From: Parvibaculum indicum
GTDB taxonomy: Bacteria > Pseudomonadota > Alphaproteobacteria > Parvibaculales > Parvibaculaceae
NCBI RefSeq assembly: GCF_011762095.1
Contig: NZ_JAASQO010000001.1
Coordinates: 372,001 to 436,000, forward strand
Length of the DNA: 64,000 bases
Direction of reading: 5' to 3'
In this document: in pieces, positions 6,451 through 52,791 of the stretch
Numbering within the stretch: the stretch's first letter is position 1
How the letters are laid out: every line of letters starts with the position of its first letter
Made by a program: the position numbers and the translations under genes
The notes under the pieces: generated by a model
Databases searched by the model: none
The model's input: the letters and a program-made list of their open reading frames with translations, nothing else
What the model was told of the DNA's origin: nothing

Positions 6451-6466
6451 TCACCTGTTTCTTACA

Positions 6467-7657
<1,191 letters not shown>

Positions 7658-24378: not shown

Positions 24379-24389
24379 CGGTTCCAGGA

Positions 24390-25580
<1,191 letters not shown>

Positions 25581-48666: not shown

Positions 48667-49866
48667 ATGCTGGAAGGTCTCAAAGTCGTGGAAATGGCAA
48701 CCTATATCGCCGCGCCGGGCGCGGGCGGCATCCTTGCCGACTGGGGGGCGGAGGTCATCAAGATCGAGCCCCTGAGCGGATGCCCGATGCGCTACACCAT
48801 GGCCAATGTCGGCGCGGACCATCTGAAGGGCAGCCCGATCTTCGATCTCGACAATCGCGGCAAGAAGGGCCTGGCCATCAACACCGCGACGCCGGAGGGC
48901 GTGGCCGCGGTGAAACGGCTGGTCGAGGATGCCGACGTCTTCATCACCAATGTGCGCCCCGGCGGGCTGGAACGCGCAGGGCTGGATTACGACTCCCTGA
49001 AAGAGATCAATCCGCGCCTCATCTATGCCAGCGTCACCGGCTACGGGCTGGAAGGCCCCGACAGGGACCGTCCCGGCTTCGACATCGCCGCCTTTTATGC
49101 CCGGTCCGGCGTGGGCTGGCTGCAGACCGTCAAGGGCGGCGAACCCGTCTCGCTGCGGACCGGCATCGGCGACCACACCACCAGCATGGCGACGGTGGGC
49201 GGGATTCTCGCCGCCGTCTTCGAACGCCAGACGACCGGCAAGGGCCGCCTGGTGGAAGCCTCGCTCCTGCGCGCGGGCATCTATGCGGCCGGGTCGGACA
49301 CCGCCGTCCAGCTCCGCTACGGTAAGCTCGGCTCCACCAAGACGCGCCATGAGGCCATCCAGCCCATCAGCAATTTCTTCAAGACCCGGGATACCTGGAT
49401 CGTGATCGTCCCGCGTCAGGGGTCGACCGACTGGACGGCGATCTGCAAGGTGATCGGCCGGCCCGAACTCGAAACCGATCCCCGTTTCGACACCCCGAAG
49501 AACCGACGCGCCAACGCTGCCGAACTGGTGGATATTCTGGACGCCGCCTTCATCCAGCACGATCTCGCCCATTGGCGCGAGAAGCTCGATGCCGAGGACA
49601 TGATCTGGGCCCCGCTTCTGCGTCCGGCCGATGTCTTCGCCGATCCGCAGGCCAGGGCCGCCGGCGCCTATGTGGAAGTGCCCGAAGAAGGCGGCGGCGA
49701 AGGAACCTATCTTTCGCCGGCCTCGCCCATCCGTTTCCCCGGCGCCGATGACGGCCCCAAGGGCCCGGCGCCCGTTCTCGGCGAACACACCATCGACACG
49801 CTGAAGGCATCCGGGTTCAGCGACGAGGAAATCGAAGGGCTGAGGAAAGCCGGCGCCATCGGCTAG
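48667..49866 (+). CDS. CaiB/BaiF-family (class III) CoA-transferase
   Basis: 399 residues starting MLEGLKVVEMATYIAAPGAG. The family pattern LADWGAEVIKIEPLSG, NRGKKGLAINTATPEGVAAV and the catalytic aspartate in RPGFDIAAFYARSG are present. Such enzymes move CoA between carboxylic acids. The gene ends in the residues KAGAIG, and the last 23 bases are repeated at 51806-51828. Its stop overlaps the stop of the convergent reductase in the shared tetramer CTAG. Confidence 0.88.
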   Translation: MLEGLKVVEMATYIAAPGAGGILADWGAEVIKIEPLSGCPMRYTMANVGADHLKGSPIFDLDNRGKKGLAINTATPEGVAAVKRLVEDADVFITNVRPGGLERAGLDYDSLKEINPRLIYASVTGYGLEGPDRDRPGFDIAAFYARSGVGWLQTVKGGEPVSLRTGIGDHTTSMATVGGILAAVFERQTTGKGRLVEASLLRAGIYAAGSDTAVQLRYGKLGSTKTRHEAIQPISNFFKTRDTWIVIVPRQGSTDWTAICKVIGRPELETDPRFDTPKNRRANAAELVDILDAAFIQHDLAHWREKLDAEDMIWAPLLRPADVFADPQARAAGAYVEVPEEGGGEGTYLSPASPIRFPGADDGPKGPAPVLGEHTIDTLKASGFSDEEIEGLRKAGAIG

Positions 49867-49868
49867 GC
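49846..49868. repeat. Left copy of a 23-bp direct repeat (end of CoA-transferase gene)
   Basis: This stretch, encoding KAGAIG plus stop, recurs at 51806-51828 with one mismatch at the third base. Similarity ends sharply on both sides. The pair brackets the reductase and TetR genes. Confidence 0.8.
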
Positions 49869-50954
49869 TGCATCCTCCACCTGCGCGAGGCGGTCGATGG
49901 AGATGCCCTCCTCATTCATGATCTGCCTCGCCGTCTCAATGTCGGTAACCGTTTCAGCGACCTGAATCCCGGCTGACGGCGTCCCCTGACGGATCAGCCG
50001 GTCGAGCTGGATCATGGCGCCCGTCGCAGTCAGATGTGTCTGGCCCTGCGGATCCGTGACGATCCAGCTCTCCCGCATGGCTCCGTTTGCGCCCTCGCCT
50101 TCGATATCGATACGAACCCGATGCGCCCCGCCTTCTCCGGGATTGTGCATCAGCCCATGCCGCAACTTGCGGAACCGCTCGCCACTGATGAGCCCCCACA
50201 AGCCGGAACGCACGAGAACACTCAGAAGCGGGCCCGAAGTTCGGTCGTCGAAACCGATACGCGCCGCCACGCTTCTCGCCCCCGTGACGATGGGGAGCGT
50301 CATCTGGTCCGGCGTATCGAAGCGATAGAGCGGAAAGCGCCCCACTCCCGGAAATTCCGTCTTGATCCCCTTGCGAAAGGGATATGCCATCACCGCCCGC
50401 CCTTCTTCACGGACCTCGAAGGGAAGCGCCATCCTGTCCATATATTCCACCGAGTTGGGACCGGACTTGTCCTGTGCCGCATAGAGGATGCCGACTTCGA
50501 TCCGATCGACCTGCCGGAAACCGGCCGCCATCTCACGCACCAGTATGCCGACCGTCGCGGCCATCCAGGAGGAGGCGAAGACGACCGGAGCCCTGGAGGT
50601 ATCTTCCATCGCCGCCCGCAGAATCGAGCCCCGCATCCGTTCGGTCCAGCGCGTGATGTCGATATAGGGAATATGCGCGCGGATCGCGTCGAGCATCAGA
50701 TTGTCGTCGATGTCGTTGACCGCCCCGAGCACGAGGGCGGGCTGCCTTTCGAGCCCGGCCAGCGGATTGCGGGCGGAGATATCCAGCCGCACGACCGCCG
50801 CGCGGCCCAGCTCTTCGACAAGCTCTTCTCCCTGCCTCGGCGATCGTCCGCCCAGCAGTATCTCGATTTCCGGATAGCGCTTTCTCAGAAGCCGGGCGAT
50901 TTGCGTGCCGACAACGCCATAGCCGCCGGCAATGAGCACAGTTTCATTGGTCAC
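49863..50954 (-). CDS. Saccharopine dehydrogenase-like NAD(P)-binding protein
   Basis: 363 residues starting MTNETVLIAGGYGVVGTQIA, a Rossmann nucleotide loop of the GxGxxG type. The pattern GRAAVVRLDISARNPLAGLE and LVLGAVNDIDDNLMLDAIRA matches saccharopine dehydrogenase-like reductases, which include trans-acting enoyl reductase-type proteins. The substrate is unknown. It is divergent from a TetR gene, with paired palindromes between, and convergent with the CoA-transferase, sharing CTAG at the stops. Confidence 0.78.
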   Translation of the reverse strand: MTNETVLIAGGYGVVGTQIARLLRKRYPEIEILLGGRSPRQGEELVEELGRAAVVRLDISARNPLAGLERQPALVLGAVNDIDDNLMLDAIRAHIPYIDITRWTERMRGSILRAAMEDTSRAPVVFASSWMAATVGILVREMAAGFRQVDRIEVGILYAAQDKSGPNSVEYMDRMALPFEVREEGRAVMAYPFRKGIKTEFPGVGRFPLYRFDTPDQMTLPIVTGARSVAARIGFDDRTSGPLLSVLVRSGLWGLISGERFRKLRHGLMHNPGEGGAHRVRIDIEGEGANGAMRESWIVTDPQGQTHLTATGAMIQLDRLIRQGTPSAGIQVAETVTDIETARQIMNEEGISIDRLAQVEDAA

Positions 50955-51083
50955 TGGAATCTACCTGATTGTAGAGAATGAATCAGAGTGCGATGGAAGG
51001 GCGGCACCACATGCCCGCGAGCCCCGGCATCGCCATGCCTGCCGCGCTCGCCCCACCCGCTTTCAGAAAACCCCGCCTTGAAA

Positions 51084-51095
51084 GACGTGCACGTC
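51084..51095. promoter_or_regulatory. 12-base perfect palindrome in the reductase-TetR gap
   Basis: GACGTGCACGTC is a perfect palindrome 35 bases upstream of the paired operator-like sites. It may be a third protein site or chance. Confidence 0.35.
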
Positions 51096-51118
51096 GCTGC
51101 ATTCGGCCACCTCACTTT

Positions 51119-51159
51119 TGGTCACATGACCATGTTTATATTTTTTGGTCAAGAGACCA
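51119..51159. promoter_or_regulatory. Two tandem palindromic operators for a divergent TetR regulator
   Basis: TGGTCACATGACCA (51119-51132) and TGGTCAAGAGACCA (51146-51159) share the form TGGTC-N4-GACCA, with centres 27 bases apart. They lie 20-60 bases before the TetR start, in the 225-base gap that also serves the divergent reductase gene. Binding by the adjacent TetR protein is inferred. Confidence 0.7.
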
Positions 51160-51179
51160 TTTTCGGGATAAAAGGCGGC

Positions 51180-51794
51180 ATGTCCGCGAATGACCGGAGA
51201 CGGCGAGGGAAGATGGTGAGAAGGACCGGCGCCAAGGGCCAGCGACGCATCGAAGAAATTCTCGATGCAGCGGAGGAAATACTGGTCGAGGTGGGGTATG
51301 GAGGCCTGTCCATGCGCGGTGTTGCCGACCGGCTCGGCTTGCGCCTTTCGCATGTTCAGTACTATTTCGGCGGGCCCGACGCTCTGTTGGAGGCGATTTT
51401 CGACCGCTCGCTCACACGCTCGATCGAGGCGTTCGAACACCGCCCGAAACGCGAAGGGATCGAGGCCATGGTCGCCTTCGTGCTCGAAGATCAGCTTTCC
51501 ACGAGCTACTGCCGGCTGTTCTTCGAACTATGGGCGCTCGCCGCGCGCGACATGAAGGCCAACGCTGTCCTTGCCCGCTATTACGCGCGTTATCAGTCCT
51601 ATGTGGAGAGCATGGTCGCCTCGGAATATCCCCAGGCGAAACCGGCACAGCTCAAACGCTGCGCCGTCATCCTGATGAGCCTGTTCGAGGGCTTGTCGCT
51701 TTTCAGGGGCGTCGAAGGCCGGATCGCCGTATCGCGGCGCGAGCTCGACAAGGATATCGTGAAAGCGGTTCGCGCCATCCTCGCGCAAAGCTGA
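51180..51794 (+). CDS. TetR/AcrR-family transcriptional regulator
   Basis: 204 residues starting MSANDRRRRGKMVRRTG after AAAGGCGG. The helix-turn-helix is RIEEILDAAEEILVEVGYGG then MRGVADRLGLRLSHVQYYFG; the C-terminal domain is helical. An ATG 11 codons later is an alternative start. It is divergent from the reductase and probably controls both through the paired palindromes. It lies inside the repeat-flanked module. Confidence 0.87.
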   Translation: MSANDRRRRGKMVRRTGAKGQRRIEEILDAAEEILVEVGYGGLSMRGVADRLGLRLSHVQYYFGGPDALLEAIFDRSLTRSIEAFEHRPKREGIEAMVAFVLEDQLSTSYCRLFFELWALAARDMKANAVLARYYARYQSYVESMVASEYPQAKPAQLKRCAVILMSLFEGLSLFRGVEGRIAVSRRELDKDIVKAVRAILAQS

Positions 51795-51805
51795 CCCGGC
51801 CGACA

Positions 51806-51828
51806 AAGGCCGGCGCCATCGGCTAGGC
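51806..51828. repeat. Right copy of the 23-bp direct repeat (relic of a CoA-transferase end)
   Basis: 22 of 23 bases match 49846-49868. In one frame it still reads KAGAIG-stop, although no CoA-transferase gene precedes it here. It starts 12 bases after the TetR stop. Confidence 0.8.
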
Positions 51829-51831
51829 CCG

Positions 51832-52791
51832 TCAGGCCATGGCGTTGACGGCCTCATGGGGCGGTCGGGCAAGGTCCTGCCAGGTCCCGATGGCGCCATG
51901 CCGGGCGCGCGGCTCATCCTTGTCCTTCGCCGCATCATTATCGACCGCCTGCGGCGGATCGAGCGAGGCGAGGATCTGCACCACAGCGGGGCTGAGCTTC
52001 AGCGCCCCGCTGCCGGGCGCGGTATCGGGCCTGAACGGACGGGCTTGCCCGGAAGACGGTACGTAGCGCCTCCCGGGCGAAGCCTCTCCATCCGCATGGC
52101 TGGCGGCCATTCCCGTACCACCCTTTACGTCGAAAGGAATGGCCGCCGCCATGCTTGCCGCACCGCCACCCGTGCCGGCAACCGCATGTTTGCTGATGAG
52201 CTGCTGATAGACCTCGTTCGCCGTGCGCGCACGGCCCGACGCCTCGTAGAAAATCGATCTGTTCGCCTTCGCCGCCGCGGGGAAGAGTCTGTCCGCCGGC
52301 ATCCCCGGATCGTTCTCGGCGGTCGAGATCAGTTTCGACGCCCCGCCCGCGCCGAGGAAATGCGCGATATAGAGTTCGCCGCCCACCGGCTCGCGCCCCA
52401 GACGCGACTGAAGAATGTTGGCGCTTTCCTGCGTATAGGCGCCGGCCATCAGCGCCGACACTTCCGGATCCTTGCGCAGGGAAAGAATTTCCGCCCGGTC
52501 GGCAGGATCTGCCACGCAGTATTTGCCGTCCGCGCCCCGGGTGATCCTGGCCGCCTCCTGGCCCAGGCCCAGCTCTCCGCCGTAAGTCTTGAGCGTCGAA
52601 AGCCAACTCTGCTCGGTAAACTGAAAAAGCCCCGTCGCGCTCGAAGTCCCTGATTTCGCGGAACAATCGAGGCTCGACTCGCGCATGGCCGTTTGCAGCA
52701 GATAGTCGAAATCTGCACCGGTCTTCCGGCTTGCCTGCTGCAGGGCGGCGGATATGTCGGGACGCGCAGTGAGCGCGGCTACGAGCGACAT
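51832..52791 (-). CDS. Lytic transglycosylase-like (SLT fold) protein
   Basis: 319 residues starting MSLVAALTARPDISAALQQA. The segment LLQTAMRESSLDCSAKSGTS with GLFQFTEQSWLSTLKTYGGE matches the SLT fold; the glutamate in RESS is the candidate catalytic acid. The C-terminal 110 residues are Pro/Gly/Ala-rich and look disordered. No signal peptide is visible from this ATG; an upstream start would add 48 residues without improving it. Possible roles are wall opening for secretion or a flagellar or envelope machine, but no such genes are near. Confidence 0.75.
   Translation of the reverse strand: MSLVAALTARPDISAALQQASRKTGADFDYLLQTAMRESSLDCSAKSGTSSATGLFQFTEQSWLSTLKTYGGELGLGQEAARITRGADGKYCVADPADRAEILSLRKDPEVSALMAGAYTQESANILQSRLGREPVGGELYIAHFLGAGGASKLISTAENDPGMPADRLFPAAAKANRSIFYEASGRARTANEVYQQLISKHAVAGTGGGAASMAAAIPFDVKGGTGMAASHADGEASPGRRYVPSSGQARPFRPDTAPGSGALKLSPAVVQILASLDPPQAVDNDAAKDKDEPRARHGAIGTWQDLARPPHEAVNAMA

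Follow-up and report, generated by a model that had tools for sequence, protein, structure and literature searches.

How did a reductase gene and a TetR-family regulator gene come to lie between two copies of the end of a neighbouring gene that is itself unbroken? The question is raised by a stretch of Parvibaculum indicum DNA of 64,000 nucleotides (the window), in which the end of a CoA-transferase family III gene (COAT) recurs beside a transglycosylase-like gene (TG), with the reductase gene (RED) and tetR in between. We consider it very probable that this locus records a single insertion of a regulated operon, with a target of 23-26 bp duplicated at the gene end, followed by an internal deletion. 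Comparison of genome sequences indicates that an empty site, an insert, a duplicated gene end, a larger original operon and a deletion can all be recognized among the window and its relatives. The duplication would have arisen in the insertion event itself, and the DNA would have been joined either by an integrase, lost since or supplied in trans, or through end-joining repair of a staggered break.

A repeated gene end between convergent genes

The features on which this reading turns are as follows.

49846..49868, plus strand: repeat copy 1, comprising the terminal 6 codons of COAT with their stop (21 bases) and 2 further bases
51806..51828, plus strand: repeat copy 2, beside TG, read as the ancestral COAT end
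48667..49866, plus strand: COAT, CoA-transferase family III, the target gene, ending in KAGAIG-stop (Pfam PF02515, 2.8e-102)
51832..52791, minus strand: TG, transglycosylase-like, the right neighbour, assigned by synteny (PF01464 SLT, E 0.002, below cut-off)

The 23-bp repeat at the COAT end, with one mismatch and 1960 bases from start to start, had been noticed in the original prediction and is confirmed here. Both copies read AA(A/G)GCCGGCGCCATCGGCTAGGC and are identical at 22 of 23 positions. The exact 20-mer GCCGGCGCCATCGGCTAGGC has two matches in the whole genome of P. indicum (4.02 Mb), which are copies 1 and 2 alone, and a search with a 24-base pattern allowing up to 3 mismatches likewise matched only these two places in the window and nothing in 100 shuffled windows. 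As a control for background repetition, exact repeats of at least 17 bases at 0.3-20 kb spacing were collected from 356 kb of the same contig (292 kb plus the window), which yielded 44 exact pairs. When read by eye, the pairs of at least 20 bases resembled short intergenic repeats with a palindrome or segments shared within two paralogous gene pairs, apart from a 1192-bp duplication and the COAT-end pair; by our own reading of the list, the COAT-end pair is the only one without the look of a palindromic repeat, a paralogue or the 1192-bp duplication. A chance origin of the repeat is ruled out by the genome-wide count of the 20-mer, the shuffles, the contig control and the mismatch counts in relatives given below.

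The two copies are placed closely against the genes around them. Copy 1 is the end of two genes at once because COAT and the convergent RED share bases of their stop codons within CTAG, with the COAT stop at 49864-49866 and the RED stop at 49863-49865 on the minus strand. Copy 2 begins 11 bases after the tetR stop, which ends at 51794, and its own TAG ends at 51826, 5 bases short of the TG stop, which begins at 51832. Copy 2 still encodes KAGAIG-stop, both in the window and in the closest relative, Parvibaculum sp. CPC32 (G015), and does so in a reading frame that differs from that of tetR.

Could the repeat owe its two copies to a common function, such as terminating transcription in both directions where convergent genes meet, rather than to an insertion? 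Both copies do lie between convergent genes, and copy 2 in the window adjoins the stem-like CCGGCC-GACAAA-GGCCGG. This stem is broken in CPC32, however, neither of the two terminator-like sites in 49700-51950 falls at a copy (shuffles gave 1.9), and the two copies are the only ones in the genome, so that we regard a shared element as highly improbable. The original prediction had also raised a relic of tandem duplication. In such a history COAT and a neighbour would have been duplicated around the operon and the second COAT then cut down to its last 21 bases. This would likewise place a COAT end beside TG, but a translated search found no other COAT-derived sequence in the window, and the deletion would have had to end 11 nt past an intact tetR gene and 21 nt before the end of COAT. 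Further COAT matches of more than 100 residues in the 27 Parvibaculum genomes compared reach at most 37% identity, higher values being confined to short pieces (42-48%) and to one 94% piece (residues 1-62) at a contig edge in G026, which fits a split COAT gene there. We therefore disfavour tandem duplication as quite unlikely.

Empty, filled and differently filled junctions in relatives

The COAT-TG junction was assigned in 27 Parvibaculum genomes, that of P. indicum included. A COAT orthologue of 77-97% identity with conserved neighbours is present in 25 of the 26 others, none being found in the G023 assembly, and 20 of the 27 (P. indicum and CPC32 counted) keep the order DUF2336-COAT...TG-MFS within a single contig. 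The module occupies the junction in two genomes, P. indicum and CPC32; seven junctions are empty, and 18 hold another insert. An empty site in relatives had been predicted, and indeed COAT adjoins TG with stop-to-stop gaps of -4, 3, 0, 24, 0, 8 and 0 nt (G003, G004, G006, G007, G016, G019 and G020, respectively) and does so again in three genomes from two other genera (G029, G033 and G032). The COAT end sequence has diverged in the empty-site genomes. Taken with the duplicated gene end, these empty junctions support the proposal that DNA entered at a gene end and duplicated its target.

In 11 of the 18 genomes with another insert, COAT and TG lie on one contig; the other seven (G005, G008, G009, G011, G013, G023 and G026) have broken contigs and were assigned by an Rrf2 gene beside TG. 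A GST gene stands beside COAT in four of these seven (G008, G011, G013 and G026) and not in G005 or G009; the G023 assembly yielded no COAT orthologue. Named by eye from their translations, the other inserts carry varying sets of GST, cation ATPase or acyltransferase, truncated haemoglobin and Rrf2 genes, the last two being missing from the insert of G022. The insert of G014, also named by eye, includes a carboxylase-like and an OYE-like gene. The COAT-TG junction is thus a variable spot of the genus, holding different genes in 18 genomes (for example L113, L115, L121 and L122).

In the window and in CPC32 alike, 3 nt lie between the TG stop and a copy of the COAT end. This copy has 1 mismatch in 23 in the window (next best match 8) and 4 in 23 in CPC32 (next best 10). 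No such copy was found in the 11 complete other inserts, where the best direct matches have 7-10 mismatches in 23 at scattered positions, nor within 400 nt beyond TG in the seven broken-contig genomes, where every match has at least 7.

A tree built from COAT, MFS, DUF2336 and TG of 28 genomes, with some rows partial or missing and with G023 and G026 excluded, gives support of 100 each to the pair of the window and CPC32, to a group of 16 other-insert genomes, and to both groups together; the position of G019 is weak (59). The simplest reading of this tree is one insertion into an empty junction in the ancestor of the window and CPC32, with a separate filling in the sister clade. Sequence blocks that span the module and its flank are 90.4% and 89.6% identical between the window and CPC32, and therefore the module was probably already in place when the two lineages diverged. 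Between these genomes copy 1 differs at 3 of 23 positions and copy 2 at 2 of 23.

The opposite polarity, an ancestral module lost by precise deletion between the repeats, would be of the kind described for Haloquadratum, where repeat-mediated deletions leave a single copy (PMC3119063). Here every empty lineage, and the other genera besides, would have to have lost the module separately, different genes occupy the junction elsewhere, and the tree favours insertion; we hold an ancestral module to be very unlikely.

A six-gene operon in CPC32 and its remnant in the window

What was inserted is best seen in CPC32, where the same COAT and TG enclose 4738 nt, as compared to 1965 nt in the window. 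This insert consists of six genes, tetR divergent from tat-gmc-m1-m2-red. Its gmc encodes a GMC oxidoreductase (PF00732, PF05199), m1 and m2 are two small membrane-protein-like genes, and tat encodes a protein that has a twin-arginine translocation (TAT) signal and weakly resembles gluconate dehydrogenase subunit 3, at a level below cut-off (PF13618, E 0.015). The full set is present in order in CPC32, and the window keeps only tetR and red. The remaining features of the window locus are these.

49863..50954, minus strand: RED, an NAD(P)-binding protein resembling saccharopine dehydrogenase (a weak PF03435 match at E 0.0031 that misses the cut-off)
50983..51102, minus strand: a 39-codon fusion remnant in which the TAT signal runs on, in the same frame, into the C-terminal residues of m2 (...WCRPSIAL), recognized by comparison with CPC32
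51119..51159, no strand: a pair of palindromes, TGGTCACATGACCA and TGGTCAAGAGACCA, that are candidate TetR operators and start 27 bp from each other
51213..51794, plus strand: TetR-family regulator (PF00440 1e-8, PF13977 7e-9)

Similar gene orders recur outside the genus. The order tat-gmc-m-m-red is found in a Kordiimonadaceae genome (L059), an m gene adjoins red in L058, and tetR|tat-gmc-m1-m2 occurs at other sites in G029 and G033, whose COAT-TG junctions are empty. These recurring orders therefore identify red as the last gene of the operon and TetR as its divergent neighbour and likely regulator. In the window, the 39-codon in-frame fusion begins as tat and finishes as m2, and appears to be the scar of a net deletion of about 2.77 kb. 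By this comparison the reductase-TetR pair of the window is read as the deletion remnant of a six-gene TetR-linked operon that is intact in CPC32. The original description of the module, a saccharopine-dehydrogenase-like gene with its TetR, thus holds for the content of the window and fails as a description of the original cassette. Its further suggestion that the same module might stand at another site was not borne out, as only homologous operons were found, and these in other genera. The small passive cassette that it had also put forward is a possible reading.

Among the genomes searched, the RED protein is 91% identical to its CPC32 counterpart, and close relatives were found at three loci only (91, 45 and 41%); no solved structure was matched by sequence at E<=0.1. 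TetR is 94% identical to that of CPC32 and has a 58% homologue divergent from tat-gmc in G029 and G033. A strong gmc match was confined to CPC32 among the 27 genus genomes, and gmc had no match in 385 genomes of the class at E<=1e-120, a sample that held no genome known to match and so shows little. Pairs of tetR and red in which the reductase is 34-37% identical are present elsewhere in the genus.

Two sources for the operon were tried and rejected. For plasmids, the best red homologues, annotated as saccharopine dehydrogenase, reach about 37% identity (among the 10 of 38 matches listed) and the best gmc homologues 32% (among the 8 of 262 listed), all being below 60%. For phages, the 20-mer pattern, with S at one place, matches a single IMG/VR contig, at the end of an unrelated gene, which we read as chance.

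Two palindromes in the tetR-tat spacer are kept in both the window and CPC32, and related imperfect palindromes are present in the tetR-tat spacers of G033 and G029, with none in L059. From their sequence and position these palindromes may serve as TetR operators, and TetR may now control red directly. A loose version of the palindrome pattern matches three other places in the window, two of them within the 1192-bp duplication, and no sigma-70-like promoter was found in 49700-51950.

Several neighbouring observations deserve mention in their own right. G033 carries a tetR-reductase pair at another site (L143 8302-8342) with similar operator-like palindromes (TGGTCAGTGACCA, TGGTCATTGACCA) whose starts are 28 bp apart. 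The 1192-bp duplication consists of identical copies at 6466-7657 and 24389-25580 of the window, 17.9 kb apart, each holding an operator-like palindrome, TGGTCAACATGACCA; judged from its sequence, it resembles a duplicated elongation factor Tu gene. Elsewhere in the P. indicum genome (G000:C1:194869-207600), short palindromic intergenic repeats of the TCCCGGCTTTCGCCGGGATGACA type are clustered, with several copies in about 13 kb.

Mode of insertion and comparison with known systems

Insertion with target duplication is well supported, and its steps can be proposed in some detail. An operon of about 4.7 kb, with tetR divergent from tat-gmc-m1-m2-red, would have entered the convergent COAT/TG junction in the common ancestor of the window and CPC32, at a point within the 6 codons that close COAT. 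The target would then have stood on both sides, over 23 bp or more and perhaps over 26 bp (up to the edge of the TG stop), which left COAT with an intact end (copy 1) and TG with the original end, now displaced, next to it (copy 2); COAT would be unbroken because of this duplication. The joint itself would have supplied RED with a stop codon that shares bases with the COAT stop. In the window lineage the internal deletion would later have removed tat, gmc, m1 and m2, so that the original divergent spacer, operator-like palindromes included, now immediately precedes RED.

Several points weigh against this account. Neither an insertion enzyme, nor long terminal inverted repeats, nor a second occupied site was found, and a duplication of 23-26 bp exceeds the 8-bp duplications of DDE transposases given in PMC5704250. 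The module is carried by two genomes only, one of them a metagenome-assembled genome. CPC32 taken alone is less convincing, with a short repeat differing at 4 of 23 positions, and the original length of the repeat is uncertain; the best inverted match in its insert has 6 mismatches, a level that noise reaches. Finally, one site reads GCC in both window copies and GCG in both CPC32 copies, a pattern that needs parallel change or conversion between copies and thus hints at conversion or chance.

Within this account, the insertion may have proceeded in one of two ways. One is a decayed integrase-dependent element, similar to a cis-mobilizable element (CIME), in which the two copies are attL and attR, the COAT 3' end is attB and the integrase has been lost. 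PMC5704250 presents duplication of a gene 3' end that spares the gene as typical of tyrosine-integrase elements and their integrase-less remnants, with direct repeats of 8-60 bp that contain the 3' end of a protein gene and leave it unharmed, and the size and position observed here fit. In line with the original prediction, though, no integrase was found: neither the tyrosine recombinase family PF00589 nor the resolvase family PF00239 has a match on the 479.5-kb contig at E<=0.001, all seven PF00589 matches of the genome being on other contigs. The CPC32 insert is also a single operon with little extra DNA, no integrase was recognized in the 11 other inserts (by eye, with no family scan made) and no repeat was found there, and the one viral contig with the 20-mer carries it at an unrelated gene end. 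We consider a lost integrase possible and rather doubtful.

The other is end joining at a staggered break, in which offset nicks at the COAT end were filled in, duplicating 23-26 bp, as a piece of foreign DNA or one moved from elsewhere in the genome was ligated in, with no site-specific enzyme. The absence of both recombinase families from the contig is consistent with this, as is the lack of long inverted repeats: none of the 25 listed inverted pairs (of 26, at least 14 nt) joins the inner ends, which was our test for a DDE transposon, and a 9-base inverted match (TGCGCGAGG) seen by eye near both inner ends of the window is not kept in CPC32. The ends of the insert look arbitrary with respect to the operon, the RED stop lying in the target copy and 11 nt separating tetR from copy 2, and in other genomes the junction took up other DNA without a repeat. 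Against it, the overlap is long. We tentatively place end joining slightly ahead of a lost integrase, short of even odds. A third and bolder proposal, an undescribed enzyme-borrowing mode of operon insertion at convergent gene ends that rebuilds the gene end and borrows its stop, with the COAT/TG junction as one preferred port and the 23-26 bp duplication as its signature, is one to which we give very little credence.

In our assessment the locus history is a known kind of event that is well resolved here, clean but not exceptional. It provides a resolved example of a regulated operon entering a chromosome without breakage, as the junction can be seen empty, occupied and cut back in related genomes. 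It also illustrates that what looks like a gene with its own regulator may have survived from a larger operon, a caution for the practice of pairing regulators with the genes next to them. Should the repeat be an attachment site, a testable excision product would be expected from the 23-mer.

Judged by title and the start of the abstract, none of the papers listed for Parvibaculum and genomic islands concerns this subject. Three known systems come closest. One is the set of TetR operons for GMC dehydrogenases with a TAT-signal subunit (L059, G029 and G033), which have the order tat-gmc-m-m(-red) and, in G029 and G033, tetR as divergent neighbour; in L059 the nearest TetR match (33%) lies 2.7 kb from the operon. 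Unlike these, the window is without tat, gmc, m1 and m2, and G029 and G033 are without red beside the operon. CIMEs and decayed tyrosine-integrase elements, as portrayed in PMC5704250, share with our locus direct repeats that hold a gene end, an unbroken gene and no integrase inside; they differ in that here no remnants of transfer or integration genes were recognized, the insert is one regulated operon, and no related integrase-bearing element is present at the site. Lastly, the indels of Haloquadratum walsbyi resemble our locus in that DNA confined to one strain is flanked by short direct repeats, of which the other strain has a single copy. Their repeats are 10-19 bp in 16 cases, and 10 of the 11 decidable cases are read as deletions in PMC3119063, whereas here the repeat is longer and lies at a gene end, and the outgroups point to insertion.

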